Shown here: piece by piece, positions 2,014 through 35,201 of the stretch
How positions within the stretch are numbered: the first letter of the stretch is position 1
Layout: each line of letters opens with the position of its first letter
Assembly: GCA_022448315.1 (NCBI GenBank)
Contig: JAKVCA010000026.1
Coordinates: forward strand, 1 to 64,000
DNA: 64,000 bases
Reading direction: 5' to 3'
Origin: Pirellulaceae bacterium
GTDB lineage: Bacteria > Planctomycetota > Planctomycetia > Pirellulales > Pirellulaceae
Notes under the pieces: generated by a model
Told to the model about the DNA's origin: nothing
The model's database searches: none
Seen by the model: only the letters and a program-made list of their open reading frames with translations
Position numbers and translations under genes: made by a program

Positions 2014-3003
2014 TTATTCTCCCAGTGGGAAGAAGCAGCGGGCGGAGTGGAGTTTGGAATGCTCTTCGAGTTGAGGTGGCTGAGCTTTGCACTGCTCCTG
2101 TGCAAATCGACAACGCTGGTGGAAGCGGCAACCCTCCGGCAATTCGAACAGGCTTGGCACAATTCCCTCGATCGCTGGGAGTCGCTGCCCCTTTTCGGTC
2201 GCGTCGGGTCGAGGCAGTGAGTCCAACAAGGCACGCGTGTAAGGGTGCTGGGGAGTGTGGAAAAGTTCTGTCACCGAAGCGACCTCCACAATCTGTCCGG
2301 CATACATCACGATGACCCGATCACAAACCTGAGCGACCACACCAAGGTCGTGCGTGATGAGAATGATGGCTGTGTTGATTTTTTTCTGCAGGTCCTGCAT
2401 CAGGCGAAGAATCTGGGCCTGAATGGTGACGTCCAGGGCCGTGGTAGGCTCGTCCGCAATCAGAATTTCAGGTTCGCAAGCCAAGGCCATAGCAATAACG
2501 ATTCGCTGCCGCATCCCACCCGACAATTGGTGGGGATATTCATTGATGCGTTTCTCGGGATTGGGGATTTCAACAAGCTGCAACAGTTCGAGCACGCGTT
2601 CACGACGCTGAGCACGATTCATGGACGTGTGATACTTCAGTGCTTCTTCGATTTGCCAGCCAATGGTAAACACTGGGTTGAGTGCGGTCATGGGTTCCTG
2701 GAAAATCATGGCGATGCGATTTCCACGGATCGTTCGCATCACTTTCTCGGGAACATGGGCCAAGTTGTGACCGTCGAAAAGGATTTCGCTTTCTTCAGAA
2801 AGTTCGCTGGTGTACTCCGGCAGGAGTCGCATGATGGATCGATTGGTCACTGATTTGCCGCAACCCGATTCCCCCACGATTCCCAACACTTCTCCGGGAA
2901 AGAGGTCAAACGAGACTCGATCAACGGCCGTAACGGCTCCCCGGTCCGTTTTGAAACGGGTCGAGAGATGGTTGACTTTGAGGATCGGATCTTCGGATGA
3001 CAT
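2014..3003 (-). CDS. oppD: Oligopeptide ABC transporter ATP-binding protein OppD
   Basis: 329 residues. Second ATPase of the importer, pairing with OppF. Walker A GESGCGKS (44-51), Q-loop FQEP (101-104), signature LSGGMRQR (160-167), Walker B LIADEP (181-186) and H-loop THD are all intact. The C-terminal region from about 270 carries the family's Cys-bearing extension (CRFHQRC, then ARCFFPLGE at the end), the same layout as in OppF. The gene lies 14 nt after oppC, so translation is probably tightly coupled. Nothing suggests loss of function. Confidence 0.93.
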   Translation of the reverse strand: MSSEDPILKVNHLSTRFKTDRGAVTAVDRVSFDLFPGEVLGIVGESGCGKSVTNRSIMRLLPEYTSELSEESEILFDGHNLAHVPEKVMRTIRGNRIAMIFQEPMTALNPVFTIGWQIEEALKYHTSMNRAQRRERVLELLQLVEIPNPEKRINEYPHQLSGGMRQRIVIAMALACEPEILIADEPTTALDVTIQAQILRLMQDLQKKINTAIILITHDLGVVAQVCDRVIVMYAGQIVEVASVTELFHTPQHPYTRALLDSLPRPDATEKGQRLPAIEGIVPSLFELPEGCRFHQRCRFAQEQCKAQPPQLEEHSKLHSARCFFPLGE

Positions 3004-3017
3004 CAGGGATGGCTTCC

Positions 3018-4229
3018 TTAAACGTGTTTGGGATCGAAAGCATCCTGTAATGCATCCGACAAGATATTGAAGGCCAGCACAAAGATAAACATCAAGGTCG
3101 TCGCCGCACCGATCTGCCAGAAAAAGCTGTTGAGGACTTCAGATCGCGAGTCACGAATCATGATTCCCCAACTCGCACCCGCGCCCGCTTGAACTCCGAG
3201 GTTCAAGAAGCTCAGAATGACTTCGCTTTTGATCGCTCCAATCAAGAGGAGTGAAAAATTGATCAGCATCAGGTGAATCGTATTGGGCAGGACATGTCTC
3301 AGGAGCGTGTAGACCGGACTGAATCCTGCTGTGGTCGATGCCTGAACGTATTCCAACTCTTTTATTTTTAATGTTTCACCTCGAATCACACGACACGGAC
3401 CGATCCAGAAGGTGCAACAGAAAGCGACGTAAACGGGGATCAACGTCTGGCCGATGGCCTTCCCGAAAATCTCAACGTTGATGGATGAGAAAACGTAGGC
3501 CAGCACTACCAGAAGAACCAAGTTGGGAATCGACGAGAAGGTGGAGTAGAGCCAGATGACCGCGTGATCCACCCAGCCGCCAAAGAAGCCAGCCAGAGCG
3601 CCGAGCACGCTTCCAATCGCTACACTGATCATGGCCGTGACGACACCGATCTGGACGGCGACTTTGATGGAGAATACGGCCCGGATGAAAATGGATCGTC
3701 CTTGGCGATCGGTCCCCAGCGAAAGGTAAATGGTCTCCATGACCTGCTGGCTGAATGTTGGTGTCGCGGTCAGACTCTCGACTTCCGATTCCAAATCCGC
3801 AAGCAACGCAAGGCCCGATTCGTCATTTTCCAGATCGGGGCTGGCGGACAAGTCGTCATAAATCGCGTACGCCTTTTCAAGTTTCAGCTCAAAGTCGTCG
3901 AGGGAGATTTTTTCAAGTTTGCGCAAGCCCACTTGGATTTCATCGAGCGAAGCCTGCTGCGACTCGGGGGTCGATTTAGCGAGGGCACGGTCGACGACTG
4001 CCAGTGTGTTTTCTGCGTTGACAAGTCTTTTCTCCGCGGGAGCTTCTGCAAAGAATCCTGGGATGTTTGGGGGGCCGACGGGTTGATTGCAAAATGAAGG
4101 GGAGATGCCACCGAGCATGACAAAGATGGCGGCGGCCAGGTAAACGCCAATGATCAGCATCGCTCCCAATGCCATACGATTGGCCAGCAGCTTCCTGCCT
4201 GCTCGGGTTTTTCGGATCCGCTGCATCAT
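3018..4229 (-). CDS. oppC: Oligopeptide ABC transporter permease OppC with a long helical insertion
   Basis: 403 residues, about 100 longer than typical OppC. One membrane helix (about 19-40) is followed by an extra segment (about 45-160) that is charged, Leu/Glu/Lys-rich and looks helical or coiled-coil. Only then comes the family landmark LGTDRQGRS (171-179) and the usual block of about five membrane helices with the EAA-type cytoplasmic loop (TTAGFSPVYTLLRHVLPN). The topology puts the insertion outside, where it could touch the binding protein OppA; that is inference. The start overlaps the end of oppB by 4 nt (ATGA). Confidence 0.9.
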   Translation of the reverse strand: MMQRIRKTRAGRKLLANRMALGAMLIIGVYLAAAIFVMLGGISPSFCNQPVGPPNIPGFFAEAPAEKRLVNAENTLAVVDRALAKSTPESQQASLDEIQVGLRKLEKISLDDFELKLEKAYAIYDDLSASPDLENDESGLALLADLESEVESLTATPTFSQQVMETIYLSLGTDRQGRSIFIRAVFSIKVAVQIGVVTAMISVAIGSVLGALAGFFGGWVDHAVIWLYSTFSSIPNLVLLVVLAYVFSSINVEIFGKAIGQTLIPVYVAFCCTFWIGPCRVIRGETLKIKELEYVQASTTAGFSPVYTLLRHVLPNTIHLMLINFSLLLIGAIKSEVILSFLNLGVQAGAGASWGIMIRDSRSEVLNSFFWQIGAATTLMFIFVLAFNILSDALQDAFDPKHV

Positions 4230-30042: not shown

Positions 30043-31176
30043 ATGAGCGAAGATCATGGAGAGAGTGGACTCGAGTCGGAGTCTCATGGCCCCGATAAGG
30101 TTGCCGCCAATTCGCAGCTTCACCTTCTCGACTACGATTCCAAGTCGCTTGCCACGTGGCTGAAGACGGAGGGGAGCCAAAGTTATCGGGCCAAGCAGAT
30201 TCGTCATCGACTCTTCTCCGGTCGAGCCGAATCTTTCGAGGACATGCCGGACCTTCCGAAGGCACTTCGGGAAAAGCTGTCGCAGGATTTTCAACTATGG
30301 ACTTCAACCGTTGTCAGACATCAAAAGGCTGAGGATGGCACGGAGAAACTGCTTCTGCAGTGGTCCGAGGGAGGGCGAATTGAATGCGTGCTTCTCCGCG
30401 ATGGTGACCGTCGAACGATTTGCATCAGTAGCCAGGTTGGCTGTGCGATGGGGTGTGTTTTTTGTGCCAGTGGTCTGGATGGCGTCGATCGAAATCTGAC
30501 CCGCGGTGAAATTATCGAGCAGATGCTCAGGTTGCAACGCCTGCTGCCTCAAGGTGAGCGTCTTAGCCATATCGTGGTCATGGGGATGGGAGAGCCCCTG
30601 GCCAATCTCAACTCACTCCTTTCAGCACTGAATGAGGCCAATGCTCCCGATGGACTGGATATCAGCGCGCGGCGAATCACGATCTCTACAGTAGGACTTC
30701 CGCCCGCGATCGTCAGACTGGCAGAAGAGAACCGGAGGTTTCATTTGGCCGTTTCTCTTCACGCGCCCAATGACGAACTTCGAGATCAGATTGTACCCGT
30801 CAATCGAAAAATCGGCATCAAAAAAGTGCTCAAAGCGGCGGACCAATATTTTGAGGCCTCGGGTCGAAGGCTGACTTACGAATACGTCCTGTTGGCCGAG
30901 GTGAATGACTCTCCAGAACATGCCCAGCAACTCGCGCAGTTGCTTCGAGGCCGACCGGCTTTGCTCAATGTGATTCCGTACAATCCCGTTGAGGGACTTC
31001 CCTATCAGACACCCTCTTCGATGAGCGTGAGACGATTTCGCGAGATTTTGGAGCGGGGTGGGATCAACGTTCAATTTCGTCAACGTAAGGGCGACAAGAT
31101 CAACGCCGCGTGCGGGCAGCTCAGACGCTCCACGCCAACAGCCAATGTCGAAATTCAACCGCCATCTCAGGCATGA
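30043..31176 (+). CDS. rlmN: 23S rRNA (adenine2503-C2)-methyltransferase RlmN
   Basis: 377 residues. Radical-SAM enzyme that methylates C2 of A2503 in 23S rRNA (and often A37 of some tRNAs). The cluster-binding C-x3-C-x2-C is CAMGCVFC (134-141). VVMGMGEPLAN follows, then the SAM-binding region TISTVGLPPAIVRLAEE. The methyl-accepting/resolving Cys near the C-terminus is in INAACGQLR, as required for the RlmN/Cfr mechanism. GGGAGAG precedes the ATG. Upstream is the deoxyribosyltransferase-like gene and downstream another RNA methyltransferase. Confidence 0.95.
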   Translation: MSEDHGESGLESESHGPDKVAANSQLHLLDYDSKSLATWLKTEGSQSYRAKQIRHRLFSGRAESFEDMPDLPKALREKLSQDFQLWTSTVVRHQKAEDGTEKLLLQWSEGGRIECVLLRDGDRRTICISSQVGCAMGCVFCASGLDGVDRNLTRGEIIEQMLRLQRLLPQGERLSHIVVMGMGEPLANLNSLLSALNEANAPDGLDISARRITISTVGLPPAIVRLAEENRRFHLAVSLHAPNDELRDQIVPVNRKIGIKKVLKAADQYFEASGRRLTYEYVLLAEVNDSPEHAQQLAQLLRGRPALLNVIPYNPVEGLPYQTPSSMSVRRFREILERGGINVQFRQRKGDKINAACGQLRRSTPTANVEIQPPSQA

Positions 31177-31274
31177 TTTTCTAGACAATCGGCGAAGCAG
31201 ATTTCAGCGATCGGTGGTGTATCGTTCGCAAGAACTCTTTCAGTCCCACTTTGTAATTTCCTTGTCGAGTGATT

Positions 31275-32627
31275 ATGGCGAGATCCAAAAAACCGCGTCC
31301 TCCGATCGATGTTGAACTCGGTCAGTTTTGTTTTACAGGGCAAGTCGAGGGGCATACGGAGACACGTCGCGTGCTGGCCTGGGGGGGCTTGCCCGGAGAG
31401 CATGTGCTGGTCCGCGAACGCAAACGCAAACGTGGAACTTCGATCGGTGTCGTCGAAGAGATTTTTCGACCTTCGCCTGATCGTGTACCGCCTCTTGAGG
31501 ATCACTACATCTGCAGTTCCCCTTGGCAAGTACTCAATCCGGAACGGGAGAACGAGATCAAACATGATCTTGTTCGAGATTGGTTTTCTCAAGAGCATGG
31601 GATCGAATTGCCCGACTTCGAGGTCGTTGGGGACGTGAGGGTCGGTTATCGAAACAAACTGGAATTCGGATTTGCCAACACGGATGAAGGGGTGTCGCTT
31701 TCGTTCTTCGAGCGAGGAGGACCCGGACGAAGAATGCCTTTGGAAAGTTGTTGCCTTGGGCAAAACGAAATTAATGAAGCCGCCCAGAAAATTGTGAAGC
31801 GTTGCCGAGCCGCTGGCTACGAGTCGCGCAGTTTGAAGTCGTTGATGCTCAGAAGCAATCAGGCCGGTGAAGTTCTGGCCGGACTGTACGTGCGAGATGA
31901 ATTGCCTCCTCCTTTTACCTCGTTGGATGATCTTGAGCCGTTGGTTGGCTTTCGAATGTATTTGAGTAATCCCAAGTCTCCAGCGTCCGTGGTGGACAGG
32001 GTGATTCAGGATTTGGGACTTGCCGAAATCGACGAATATCTCCACGGTCATCGATTTTCAATGACTGATCGCAGTTTCTTCCAGGTAAATATACCGATGT
32101 TTGAAACCGCGCTCTCCGCCATTCGTCCGCATGTTCTGCCCGACCGCCCTGTTTATGACCTCTACGCCGGAGTCGGCACGATTGGGATCAACTTGGGTGT
32201 CGCCGGTACCCATTTCGTTGAGATCGAACCCGAGTGCACTCGACAGCTTGAGTTGAATTGCCAAAGAAACGGCTTGGAGGCCCCCCAGATCATCACGTCT
32301 CCTGCGGAAAAGGCGATACCTGAATTTTGCCGAGACGCGACATTGATCGTGGATCCACCCCGCGTGGGATTGCACCCCAAAGTGGTCAAGGCCCTTGCCG
32401 AGAGCGGTCCAGATCGTGTCATTTATTTGTCCTGCAATCCAGATACTCAGGCTCGCGACCTGAGTATTCTCATGCCTGGCTATACGCTAACTGACTTCCA
32501 AGCCTTCAACTTCTTTCCGCGCACCCCCCACCTCGAAACGCTTTCGATTCTGGATCGAAAAGCATGTACGGCCTCCGCAATTGAGGTTTCCCATGGAAAT
32601 TCGAGTGACCTCAACCCGCAGGATTAA
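31275..32627 (+). CDS. RlmD/RumA-family (uracil-5-)-methyltransferase
   Basis: 450 residues. An N-terminal TRAM domain (about 5-65) binds RNA. A SAM-dependent catalytic domain follows, with YAGVGTIGIN (SAM loop), VDPPRVGLH and the nucleophilic Cys in YLSCNPDTQARDL. The family makes m5U in rRNA or tRNA. Members such as RlmD hold a 4Fe-4S cluster by C-x5-C-x2-C just after the TRAM domain; here that place has only one Cys (YICSSPW), so the cluster motif is not complete. ATG at 31275 is preferred to the GTG at 31269. The target base is not known. Confidence 0.85.
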   Translation: MARSKKPRPPIDVELGQFCFTGQVEGHTETRRVLAWGGLPGEHVLVRERKRKRGTSIGVVEEIFRPSPDRVPPLEDHYICSSPWQVLNPERENEIKHDLVRDWFSQEHGIELPDFEVVGDVRVGYRNKLEFGFANTDEGVSLSFFERGGPGRRMPLESCCLGQNEINEAAQKIVKRCRAAGYESRSLKSLMLRSNQAGEVLAGLYVRDELPPPFTSLDDLEPLVGFRMYLSNPKSPASVVDRVIQDLGLAEIDEYLHGHRFSMTDRSFFQVNIPMFETALSAIRPHVLPDRPVYDLYAGVGTIGINLGVAGTHFVEIEPECTRQLELNCQRNGLEAPQIITSPAEKAIPEFCRDATLIVDPPRVGLHPKVVKALAESGPDRVIYLSCNPDTQARDLSILMPGYTLTDFQAFNFFPRTPHLETLSILDRKACTASAIEVSHGNSSDLNPQD

Positions 32628-32892: not shown

Positions 32893-34221
32893 ATGGCAAC
32901 TTCTTTCAGAATCAAACCGAAGCAGATGCTCGGAAAGTATCGCATTGAGTCCAAGCTTGGGGATGGCGGTTTCGCAACGGTCTATCGCGCGTTTGATACG
33001 CTCGAGGGAATTCGCATTGCGTTGAAAGTTCCCTATCCTCACCTTGTCAGTCCTGAGTGGACGGAAGATTTTCGACGTGAAATCCGGATCAATGCCCAAC
33101 TCAGGCATCCTCACGTTCTGCCGGTAAAAAATGCAGAGATGGTCGAGGGGGGCCTGGTGGTCGCCTACCCACTCGGAGATCGGACTTTGCAGGATCGCTT
33201 GCGTAGTCGCATGTCGCTGCCGACTGCGATCGAGTATGTCCAGCAGCTTCTGTCAGCAGTCGCGTATGCCCATTCCAGGAAGGTGATGCATTGCGACATC
33301 AAACCCGAAAATCTCATCCTGTTTGATGATCATCTCATGCTGTCGGATTTCGGACTCGCCAAAATATCGGCTCGGACGCTTCGAGCATCTGGTTCCGGGA
33401 CGGTGGGCTATATTGCTCCGGAGCAGGCGATGGGGCGACCCTCCTTTCGATCCGACGTTTTTTCGCTCGGGCTTGTAAGTTATCGAATGGTGGCCGGGAT
33501 CCTTCCGGAGTGGCCTTACGACTGGCCTTTTCCCTCGCACTCACGCCTCAGCCAGAGGGCTCACCCTGATTTGGTGCGGTTCTTGAAACGCAGCCTTGAA
33601 AACGACCCTCGCAAACGGTTTTCGGATGCGATGGCCATGGAGTCTGCGTTCCTTCGTATCCGGGCAAAATGCTTACGCTTCTCTTCCAAGACGAGCGTGA
33701 CTCAAGCTCGGACAGTCCCGCTGAAGCCGAGAGACTGGAGAACCGTGCGTCGTCGTCAATTTGTCAAAGAGTTTGGCAGCGTGCTGGAGACCGACTTTAC
33801 ATGTCAGAAATGCGACGGTCCCGTTTCAGAGGCGATGGGATTTTGTCCCTGGTGTGGCGATGACCGTACGTATTTCCCGGACCGGACTCGGCTGTCTCAA
33901 TGTTGTCCGAGGTGCAACCGTGGGCTCAAACTCGATTGGAGTTATTGCCCATGGTGCTACGGAGGCGGATTCGAACTGGCAACCCAACGCGAATATTCAG
34001 ACTCGAGGTACGTCCGTGGTTGTCAGAACTCAGCCTGTGACCGAAAAGAGCTGCTACCTTTCATGAAATATTGCCCATGGTGCCGGACAAAGGTCCGCAA
34101 GCGTTGGAAAATTCCCGGCATTAAGGAGACCTGCACAAGTTGTGGCTGGGGAGTTCTTTCCAGTTATTGGAGTCACTGCGGATGGTGCGGCAAAGCGCTT
34201 GCCGCCCAGCGGGCTGCCTAG
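32893..34221 (+). CDS. Ser/Thr protein kinase with four C-terminal zinc ribbons
   Basis: 442 residues. Kinase domain 15-260: Gly loop LGDGGF (22-27), Lys45, Glu63 of helix C, catalytic loop HCDIKPEN (133-140; Cys replaces the usual Arg, a non-RD kinase), DFG (152-154), APE (175-177). No membrane helix is seen. From about 300 come four C-x2-C (once C-x4-C)/C-x-W-C knuckle pairs: C304/307 with C318/321, C338/341 with C352/355, C377/382 with C394/397, C414/417 with C429/432. They look like zinc ribbons that bind nucleic acid or protein. The next gene encodes a PP2C phosphatase, so the two probably set one phosphorylation state. Confidence 0.9.
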   Translation: MATSFRIKPKQMLGKYRIESKLGDGGFATVYRAFDTLEGIRIALKVPYPHLVSPEWTEDFRREIRINAQLRHPHVLPVKNAEMVEGGLVVAYPLGDRTLQDRLRSRMSLPTAIEYVQQLLSAVAYAHSRKVMHCDIKPENLILFDDHLMLSDFGLAKISARTLRASGSGTVGYIAPEQAMGRPSFRSDVFSLGLVSYRMVAGILPEWPYDWPFPSHSRLSQRAHPDLVRFLKRSLENDPRKRFSDAMAMESAFLRIRAKCLRFSSKTSVTQARTVPLKPRDWRTVRRRQFVKEFGSVLETDFTCQKCDGPVSEAMGFCPWCGDDRTYFPDRTRLSQCCPRCNRGLKLDWSYCPWCYGGGFELATQREYSDSRYVRGCQNSACDRKELLPFMKYCPWCRTKVRKRWKIPGIKETCTSCGWGVLSSYWSHCGWCGKALAAQRAA

Positions 34222-34274
34222 AAACGACCTGCCTCGGCAAAATCACCCGAGGCTGAAAAGCAAAGGGCCTCACC

Positions 34275-35201
34275 GTGAACCAAGCGTCACGCCAATCGAG
34301 GATGTACCTTAATCAGGACATGCCAAGGCCCCTCGTGGAACATTGCCTTGATGGCCAGGTCGGGGTTTTCTCCCATCGCTGTCCTGGCAAAGCCACGTCC
34401 AATGAGGATTCCGTCGCCATCATAGAAGTCTCGGAAGAATTCTTGGTGCTCGCGGTCGCTGACGGTCTTGGAGGAGGGCCTGAGGGTGAAAAGGCGAGTC
34501 GATTGGCCGTTCAGACTTTGAGGCAAGAGGTCCAGGCGACATTAACCGCGGGGGTGCATCCTCGTGCCGCGATTTTGAATGGCTTCGAGGCGGCCAATGA
34601 GGTCGTTCTGCAGTCGGTGCGGGGTGGGGCGACAACGCTTGCCGTTGCTGAGATTCGTGACGGTTTTTTTCGACCCTATCACGTCGGTGATTCCGTGCTT
34701 CTATTGATGAGTAACCGCGGGAGGGTCAAGTATGAAAGTATTTCCCATTCTCCGGTTGGCTATGGTATCGAAGCCGGGGTGCTGGACCGAGAGGAAGCCC
34801 TCTATCGCGACGATCGGCATTGGGTAAGTAATGTCATAGGCTCGGAGGAGATGAGGATTGAGATCGGTCCTCAGGTCGCGATTGCTCCCCGAGATACGGT
34901 ACTCGTTACAAGCGATGGTTTGATCGACAATCTGCGGGTTGCTGAGATTGTCGAGGAGATTCGCAAGGGGGATCTTCAACGCGGAATCGAATCGCTCGTC
35001 GAGAAAACTCGCAAGCGGATGGAGGTGAAGGTCGAGGGACAGCCCAGCAAGCCTGATGATTTTACGCTGGCACTCTATCGGCCTATGGGCTTGGCGAGCC
35101 AGGCTGAGGCTGATGAGGTCGCCCAAAATCCAGTCACGCTTGGTGTTGCAAACCCACCGGAGGGGTGGGCGGAGCCTTCGAGTCCGACAAAGCCCCTCTG
35201 A
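34275..35201 (+). CDS. PP2C-family Ser/Thr protein phosphatase
   Basis: 308 residues from the GTG at 34275, supported by AAAGGG 7 nt upstream. Metal-binding motifs are in the usual order: NEDSV (43-47), ADGLGGG (62-68), GDS (138-140), TSDGL (212-216) and KPDDFTL (259-265), so the two-metal site looks intact. The last 40 residues are a Pro/Glu-rich tail. The gene begins 53 nt after the zinc-ribbon kinase and should reverse its phosphorylation; that partnership is inferred from position. No membrane segment is seen, so both act in the cytoplasm. Confidence 0.88.
   Translation: MNQASRQSRMYLNQDMPRPLVEHCLDGQVGVFSHRCPGKATSNEDSVAIIEVSEEFLVLAVADGLGGGPEGEKASRLAVQTLRQEVQATLTAGVHPRAAILNGFEAANEVVLQSVRGGATTLAVAEIRDGFFRPYHVGDSVLLLMSNRGRVKYESISHSPVGYGIEAGVLDREEALYRDDRHWVSNVIGSEEMRIEIGPQVAIAPRDTVLVTSDGLIDNLRVAEIVEEIRKGDLQRGIESLVEKTRKRMEVKVEGQPSKPDDFTLALYRPMGLASQAEADEVAQNPVTLGVANPPEGWAEPSSPTKPL

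Follow-up and report, generated by a model that had tools for sequence, protein, structure and literature searches.

Kinase and PP2C pairs are standard in bacteria, and genes for Stk1/PknB-type kinases and Stp1/PrpC-type PP2C phosphatases often adjoin. The PASTA pairs (PknB/Stk1/StkP) are nearest to the kinase domain described here, both by sequence and by fold, and the Stp1 family is closest to the phosphatase beside it. Both proteins score far below the equivalog cut-offs of these systems (132.5 against 450 for the PknB/Stk1 model NF033483, 98.3 bits against 230 for Stp1). Unlike the PASTA kinases, the present kinase has no transmembrane helix, no PASTA domain detectable with Pfam, HCD rather than HRD in its catalytic loop, and a cytoplasmic tail of zinc ribbons.

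Several other described systems share single features with this locus. In Actinobacteria, GAP1-N2 systems place a kinase with a zinc ribbon beside a PP2C and a vWA gene (PMC7159879). There the theme combines a zinc ribbon and a beta-strand-rich domain with a vWA gene in GTPase-centred loci, whereas the present pair, its ribbons compared by description, has four ribbons, no conserved third gene and a range of Planctomycetota and Gammaproteobacteria. A scan of 20 operon-like neighbours at other loci showed no vWA gene. Some PP2C phosphatases carry DZR or zf-ribbon domains (PMC12088040). The first two ribbons of our tail also pass the DZR (PF12773) cut-off; the difference is that DZR-PP2Cs bear their ribbons on the phosphatase, whereas here they sit on the kinase, as one four-ribbon domain with CPWC knuckles. 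The KKP report describes two kinases and a phosphatase borne on prophages (PMC11341870). KKP as described there is likewise a compact kinase-phosphatase unit with a patchy, mobile distribution, but the present pair has one kinase and a ribbon tail, and no prophage context was found for it in phage and plasmid records. In Synechocystis SpkB, thioredoxin targets a Cys-rich extension at the N-terminus (PMC10651672); compared by description, it too is a kinase with a Cys-rich extension, although that extension is N-terminal and redox-regulated and ours is C-terminal. Finally, PKD and DYRK kinases resemble ours at the level of a motif, with Cys replacing the HRD Arg. No description of the present four-ribbon kinase family was found in the open-access papers searched.

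The window, meaning the whole 64,000-nucleotide stretch analysed, is contig C46 of an assembly of 5.03 Mb that is 97% complete; its nearest relatives with a name are planctomycetes. The features discussed are as follows.

32893..34221, + strand: soluble Ser/Thr kinase of the Hanks type, 442 aa, ending in a four-ribbon tail
32938..33651, + strand: kinase domain (Pkinase match, residues 16-253)
33289..33297, + strand: HCD motif of the catalytic loop (residues 133-135), with Cys134 in 50/52 tailed rows
33346..33426, + strand: activation segment from DFG to PEQ, with conserved T162, S166 and T170
33742..34218, + strand: C-terminal tail, a helix and four Cys4 ribbons; query for the searches and the structure model
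33802..33855, + strand: ribbon 1 (C304, C307, C318, C321), CPWC
33904..33957, + strand: ribbon 2 (C338, C341, C352, C355), CPWC
34021..34083, + strand: ribbon 3 (C377, C382, C394, C397), CPWC
34132..34188, + strand: ribbon 4 (C414, C417, C429, C432), CGWC here and CPWC in most relatives
34275..35201, + strand: PP2C-type Ser/Thr phosphatase, 308 aa, GTG start

The kinase domain and its HCD motif

The kinase domain matches PF00069 (Pkinase) with 127.5 bits against a Pfam cut-off of 31.7, and a short linker separates it from about 150 residues that contain two double zinc ribbons. The predicted catalytic residues are K45, E63, HCD (133-135), N140 and DFG (152-154), and the initial annotation was right to read the usual Lys, Glu and Asp (K45, E63, D135) together with HCD in place of HRD. 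K45, E63, D135, N140 and D152 are invariant in the 31 full-length relatives that were aligned, a set without a tail-less kinase apparently on the same contig as G038 (L044), one cut by a contig end (L046) and one remnant (L048). Cys134 is likewise present in all 31, which come from several phyla. Across 52 tailed rows, counted without L067, whose tail is cut, and with two duplicates, 50 have Cys at this position and 2 have Arg. The duplicates are identical sequences fetched twice (L038/L070 and L045/L216), leaving 51 distinct tailed kinases of 53.

A simple hydropathy scan finds no membrane helix in the window kinase. Its highest 19-residue mean is 1.10, whereas 19 of the 25 other kinases of the genome exceed 1.6 over the stretches fetched; within the family, 3 of 88 members do so slightly. 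These values bear out the earlier observation that the protein lacks a membrane helix, and they are consistent with the suggestion of a soluble switch. Kinase matches that pass the Pfam cut-off number 26 in this genome. Of 26 other kinase loci, 25 gave a match, and the motif could be read in 20 (16 HRD, 2 HCD, 2 HGD). Both further HCD kinases (L232 and L234) are without ribbons, and the idea of HCD as a rare signature was dropped on finding them in the same genome.

The initial annotation also supposed that HCD makes activation-loop control probably different, which was not established. Human PKD is an HCD kinase, yet its activity is raised by activation-loop phosphorylation (PMC9962925, PMC10359097), and R732 of PKD1 substitutes for the HRD Arg (PMC9962925). 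DYRKs, which are also HCD kinases, have been argued to do without the primary site (PMC3677093). Among HCD members, the activation loop retains Thr and Ser residues that are candidate phospho-acceptors: T162 is present in 66/71, S166 in 60/71 and T170 in 70/71, a count that predates and omits 20 later tail-less rows. T162 is Thr in none of 15 HRD paralogs. We take R732 of PKD to be the DFG+3 position, and its S738 and S742 to lie 8 and 4 residues ahead of the GT-pair Thr. T162 and S166 stand at the same distances, 8 and 4 residues, from T170, and DFG+3 is K or R in 47 of 51 tailed and all 20 tail-less HCD members. Because this basic residue and this spacing both match PKD, control of the kinase by loop phosphorylation is plausible. 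The DFG+3 residue is not diagnostic, since it is also basic in all 15 tail-less HRD paralogs. If the kinase is phosphorylated on its loop, the PP2C would gain a direct substrate.

Two relatives depart from the motif in other ways. L211 (G024) reads HCDVNPDN, with the catalytic-loop Lys changed to Asn, and is perhaps an altered or dead kinase. L276 (G524) is tail-less and has HLD instead of HCD, with a PP2C still adjoining.

The four-ribbon tail

The tail was first read as 16 cysteines in four knuckle pairs, three with CPWC and one with CGWC as second knuckle. The count and the second knuckles stand (CPWC at 318, 352 and 394, CGWC at 429), with the refinement that ribbon 3 opens with C-x4-C (377/382) rather than C-x2-C. 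A seventeenth cysteine in the region, C337, is not conserved. Fifteen of the 16 are kept in every one of the 31 full-length relatives and C382 is aligned in 29, and in the 52 tailed rows all are kept except C382 (50/52, two gapped). The ribbon motif is thus not chance, as its cysteines are kept in 31 relatives from several phyla. Over these 31 sequences the kinase domain averages 56% pairwise identity and the tail 53%, so the tail is nearly as constrained as the enzyme.

DZR (PF12773) covers residues 304-355 with a score of 32.4 against a Pfam cut-off of 27.3 for the whole protein, and 37.4 when the tail alone is the query. AlphaFold2 models of the whole kinase, built with the 31 sequences, reach a mean pLDDT of 84.6 and a pTM of 0.57; the tail alone reaches 89.6 and 0.83. 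The confident stand-alone model and the cysteines kept in 52 relatives indicate that the tail is a compact, real domain, whose position relative to the kinase is loose in the full-length model. Judging from the cysteines, all four sites would hold zinc.

The tail is strongly basic, with a mean net charge of +16 (range -7 to +29) and +8 or more in 46/52 rows. W, Y, M and basic positions are conserved between the ribbons, which suggests a binding surface. A nucleic-acid or ribosome target, as the initial annotation proposed, is something that this charge only allows. Foldseek found no significant match for the tail in the PDB (best E 2.6) or among viral structure models (best E 0.099), and VIA-align found none at Z 2 among 24 chains. 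Because knuckle-dominated folds are hard for these structure-comparison methods, we do not claim a new fold. Against the sequences of solved structures, the tail drew non-significant hits to L33 over ribbon 3 (E 0.058 to 0.39) and to a flavocytochrome (E 0.038); a ribosomal reading from the L33 likeness was not adopted, given these E values.

Searches with the tail alone, which score just the best candidates per genome so that weaker tails in other proteins could escape, found it in 23/147 related genomes and 21/392 genomes of a phylum sample, own genome included in each. It occurred in 2/369 genomes of the class to which a Woeseia record belongs, that record included, and in none of 240 from the phylum of an Akkermansiaceae record save for a remnant in that record itself. 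There is one match per genome except in G026, where the gene seems split over two contigs. The 20 further matches in the phylum sample and the single further one in the class sample are all the same kinase. Named relatives include Botrimarina colliarenosi (its strain Pla108 is an isolate in which the pair occurs, L036), Phycisphaerae, Chromatiales, Woeseia and other Gammaproteobacteria. Plasmid and phage records gave no match to the tail, and viral contigs two weak ones (29% over 75 residues). The Akkermansiaceae remnant (L048, about 2792-3070) fuses the start of a kinase to the second half of a tail, with some 320 residues missing; an intact-looking PP2C follows it, and the arrangement is either a natural deletion or a misassembly.

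The PP2C neighbour and the optional tail

Kinase and PP2C genes lie on the + strand, 53 nt apart, the gap being as first annotated. The phosphatase matches PP2C_2 at 53.1 bits (Pfam cut-off 24). Its D45, D63, D139, D214 and D218, which we assume to be the metal-site residues, are conserved at 95% or more in a set of 58 relatives that excludes PP2Cs below 35% identity (L043).

When the neighbours of 36 loci were clustered, this PP2C, downstream on the same strand, was the sole broadly conserved one; other clusters occur in at most 4 of the 36. The two genes upstream of the kinase (window 30043-32627), which presumably encode relatives of rRNA methyltransferases, recur in G017 alone and represent local synteny, not a conserved link to the kinase. 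Nor was an operon theme evident: Pfam matched 15 of 20 neighbours, mostly to metabolic or housekeeping families (aminotransferase, FGGY kinase, arginine decarboxylase, CinA, mechanosensitive channel and others). Of 51 distinct tailed kinases, 40 have an adjacent PP2C, 9 have none and two are undecidable at contig ends, giving 40/49 decidable cases on the same strand. One of these phosphatases is only 29% alike, and one pair was joined from the two contigs of G026. Conservation of the PP2C neighbour across genomes, on which the earlier proposal of a partnership hung, is therefore upheld.

The nine tailed kinases with no PP2C beside them are not all alike. G098 has the ortholog elsewhere in its genome. 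No match at 1e-5 was found in G021, G131, G115 and G128, which makes 4 of the 23 tailed genomes among the relatives; the best matches in G162, G448 and G210 are generic (28-31% identity, 28-29% in the latter two), and G429 gave no match. Some of the assemblies without the ortholog are only 80-94% complete. With eight tailed genomes holding the kinase but no PP2C ortholog, the pair is not obligatory.

Across 147 related genomes, the PP2C subfamily is found in 37 (E 1e-30) and the kinase-domain family in 50 (E 1e-45), 43 of which have an HCD-type member. Both HCD-type kinase and PP2C are present in 33 genomes, the kinase only in 10, the PP2C only in 4 and neither in 100. The PP2C is thus held by 33/43 HCD-kinase genomes against 4/104 others (Fisher p 1e-19, kinship ignored), and the seven genomes with an HRD paralog alone have no PP2C of this subfamily. 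Distances between kinases and between phosphatases correlate with r 0.71, a value reached in 0 of 999 permutations (37 pairs, one a duplicate; kinship again ignored). Taken with the pair's presence in Gammaproteobacteria, these results support the proposed partnership. In the four genomes with this PP2C and no family kinase at the cut-off (G103, G112, G119, G135; L139-L141, L143), genes beside two of the phosphatases (L139/L140) look, in our judgement, like flagellar export.

The phosphatase does not depend on the ribbons. When 392 phylum genomes were searched with the kinase domain alone, the family was found in 43, 21 of them tailed. Twenty-one tail-less loci were fetched, one cut by a contig end, and 18 of the remaining 20 have an adjacent PP2C, as do 10 of 20 tail-less HCD kinases among the relatives; four tail-less genomes (G010, G031, G058, G073) hold both genes apart. 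PP2C thus tracks the kinase domain rather than the tail, as 28/40 tail-less non-HRD members lie directly before it. A tie between tail and PP2C was rejected, the PP2C occurring in 19/23 tailed and 14/20 tail-less HCD-type genomes (Fisher p 0.47). The initial annotation would have been refuted by kinases that lack the ribbons or the PP2C neighbour in most genomes: the neighbour held up, but 55 of 106 family kinases have no ribbons. Kinase and PP2C therefore make up the core, to which the tail is an accessory.

A quick tree of 106 kinases (51 tailed, 55 not; SH-aLRT only, with the contig-cut G456 left out) implies 12 or 13 changes of tail state, at least three forced by starred branches, and its deepest branches are tailed. 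The tail has changed state several times, although gain and loss cannot be firmly separated on these trees. Tail-less kinases were sought in the relatives and the phylum sample. An earlier view of an ancestral tail, lost once or more in one family, was overturned by this wider tree. In a tree of 88 rows, a single tail-less clade is not rejected (p-AU 0.69), but that set is biased, as its queries beyond the 147 relatives were the tail or a whole tailed protein.

All 17 HRD members are without an adjacent PP2C: 15 tail-less paralogs in one clade (L190-L204, several sharing a genome with an HCD tail-less copy), and two tailed kinases, L213 (G448) and L215 (G210). The latter two are the sole tailed members with HRD and also have the only acidic tails (-7 and -2), so that three features shift together. 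As HRD arose or was kept in just two lineages, its link to the missing PP2C is a lead and not proof.

The pair has probably also crossed phyla. A tree built on the kinase, tail and PP2C columns of the 52 tailed rows groups the six gammaproteobacterial rows in a single clade (support 92), nested in a starred set (support 95) whose other members are planctomycetes. With the kinase only, the six rows fall into two clades within a larger starred set with planctomycetes, the union of the two clades not being resolved. Two gammaproteobacterial copies sit on contigs of 503,726 and 209,030 bases, which argues against binning error. Because the gammaproteobacterial pairs nest within planctomycetes, the two genes probably moved as a unit, and transfer between phyla is the simplest reading.

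A proposed phosphorylation switch and its rivals

We favour, with a probability of roughly 60%, a conserved two-gene phosphorylation switch in which kinase and PP2C form the core and the ribbon tail, where there is one, serves to dock the kinase on a target. The kinase would phosphorylate a single cytoplasmic target or a handful of them, probably along with itself. The PP2C, expressed from what would be the same small operon, would strip the phosphates and thus probably reverse the kinase's work. The basic tail, a single rigid domain of two double zinc ribbons, may be an accessory dock that brings some kinases to a target; it is not what links the kinase to the PP2C. We are more confident of the partnership with the PP2C than of the docking role of the tail.

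The main rival, an appreciable though clearly lesser prospect, is that the tail is a sensor, in which oxidation of the Cys4 sites or loss of zinc, possibly together with Cys134, switches the kinase while the PP2C resets the output. Sixteen conserved cysteines and a near-invariant active-site Cys134 would suit such a role, and there are precedents in the thioredoxin-targeted extension of cyanobacterial SpkB (PMC10651672) and in DYRK, for whose HCD cysteine a possible redox role has been suggested (PMC3677093). Four complete Cys4 sites, however, would be more in keeping with structural zinc than with redox switching, and the loop alignment has no conserved cysteine to partner Cys134. The HCD motif is kept in 39/40 tail-less non-HRD relatives, so Cys134 and the tail cysteines are uncoupled, and the conserved positions between the ribbons point to binding. 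The further tail-less pairs from the wider phylum slightly lowered this reading.

A toxin-antitoxin or anti-phage module like KKP, with a kinase that is toxic unless the PP2C restrains it, is improbable. The pair is compact and found across phyla, the tail (23/147, 21/392) and the kinase (50/147, 43/392) are patchy, and kinase models in PADLOC, PD-T4-6 among them, recognise the kinase domain. Those matches reflect a generic kinase fold, however, and the PP2C matches none. KKP itself has two kinases and is prophage-borne (PMC11341870), whereas our tail has no plasmid or phage match beyond the two weak ones in viral contigs, and the scanned neighbours that matched Pfam are mostly metabolic or housekeeping. 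The eight genomes that keep the kinase with no PP2C ortholog are also unlike a toxin without its antitoxin. Least probable of all is that ribbons and PP2C are unrelated add-ons of shared inheritance: some tailed genomes are without the PP2C, four have it and no HCD-type kinase, and the tail comes and goes irrespective of it, but adjacency outlasts changing neighbours in Planctomycetota and Gammaproteobacteria, with or without a tail, and the wider tail-less pairs slightly lowered this reading too.

Within the two-gene switch that we prefer, it is tempting to speculate further. The constant kinase-PP2C core might be a mobile, self-sufficient phospho-switch, with a rigid, basic CPWC four-ribbon head, gained or lost several times, deciding recruitment to a ribonucleoprotein or nucleoid target, and HRD without PP2C in two lineages marking another mode of control. 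We hold this extension only tentatively.

Kinase-PP2C pairs and actinobacterial kinases with a zinc ribbon are known; what is new is a conserved four-ribbon kinase family with a PP2C. About half of the family kinases found, that of the window included, are tailed. In a genome with 26 kinase matches, this kinase keeps one phosphatase adjoining across phyla. It also corrects a habit, as HCD need not mean the absence of activation-loop control. Finally, because the kinase is soluble and nature supplies relatives both with and without the tail, its substrate and the docking role of its tail are directly testable.
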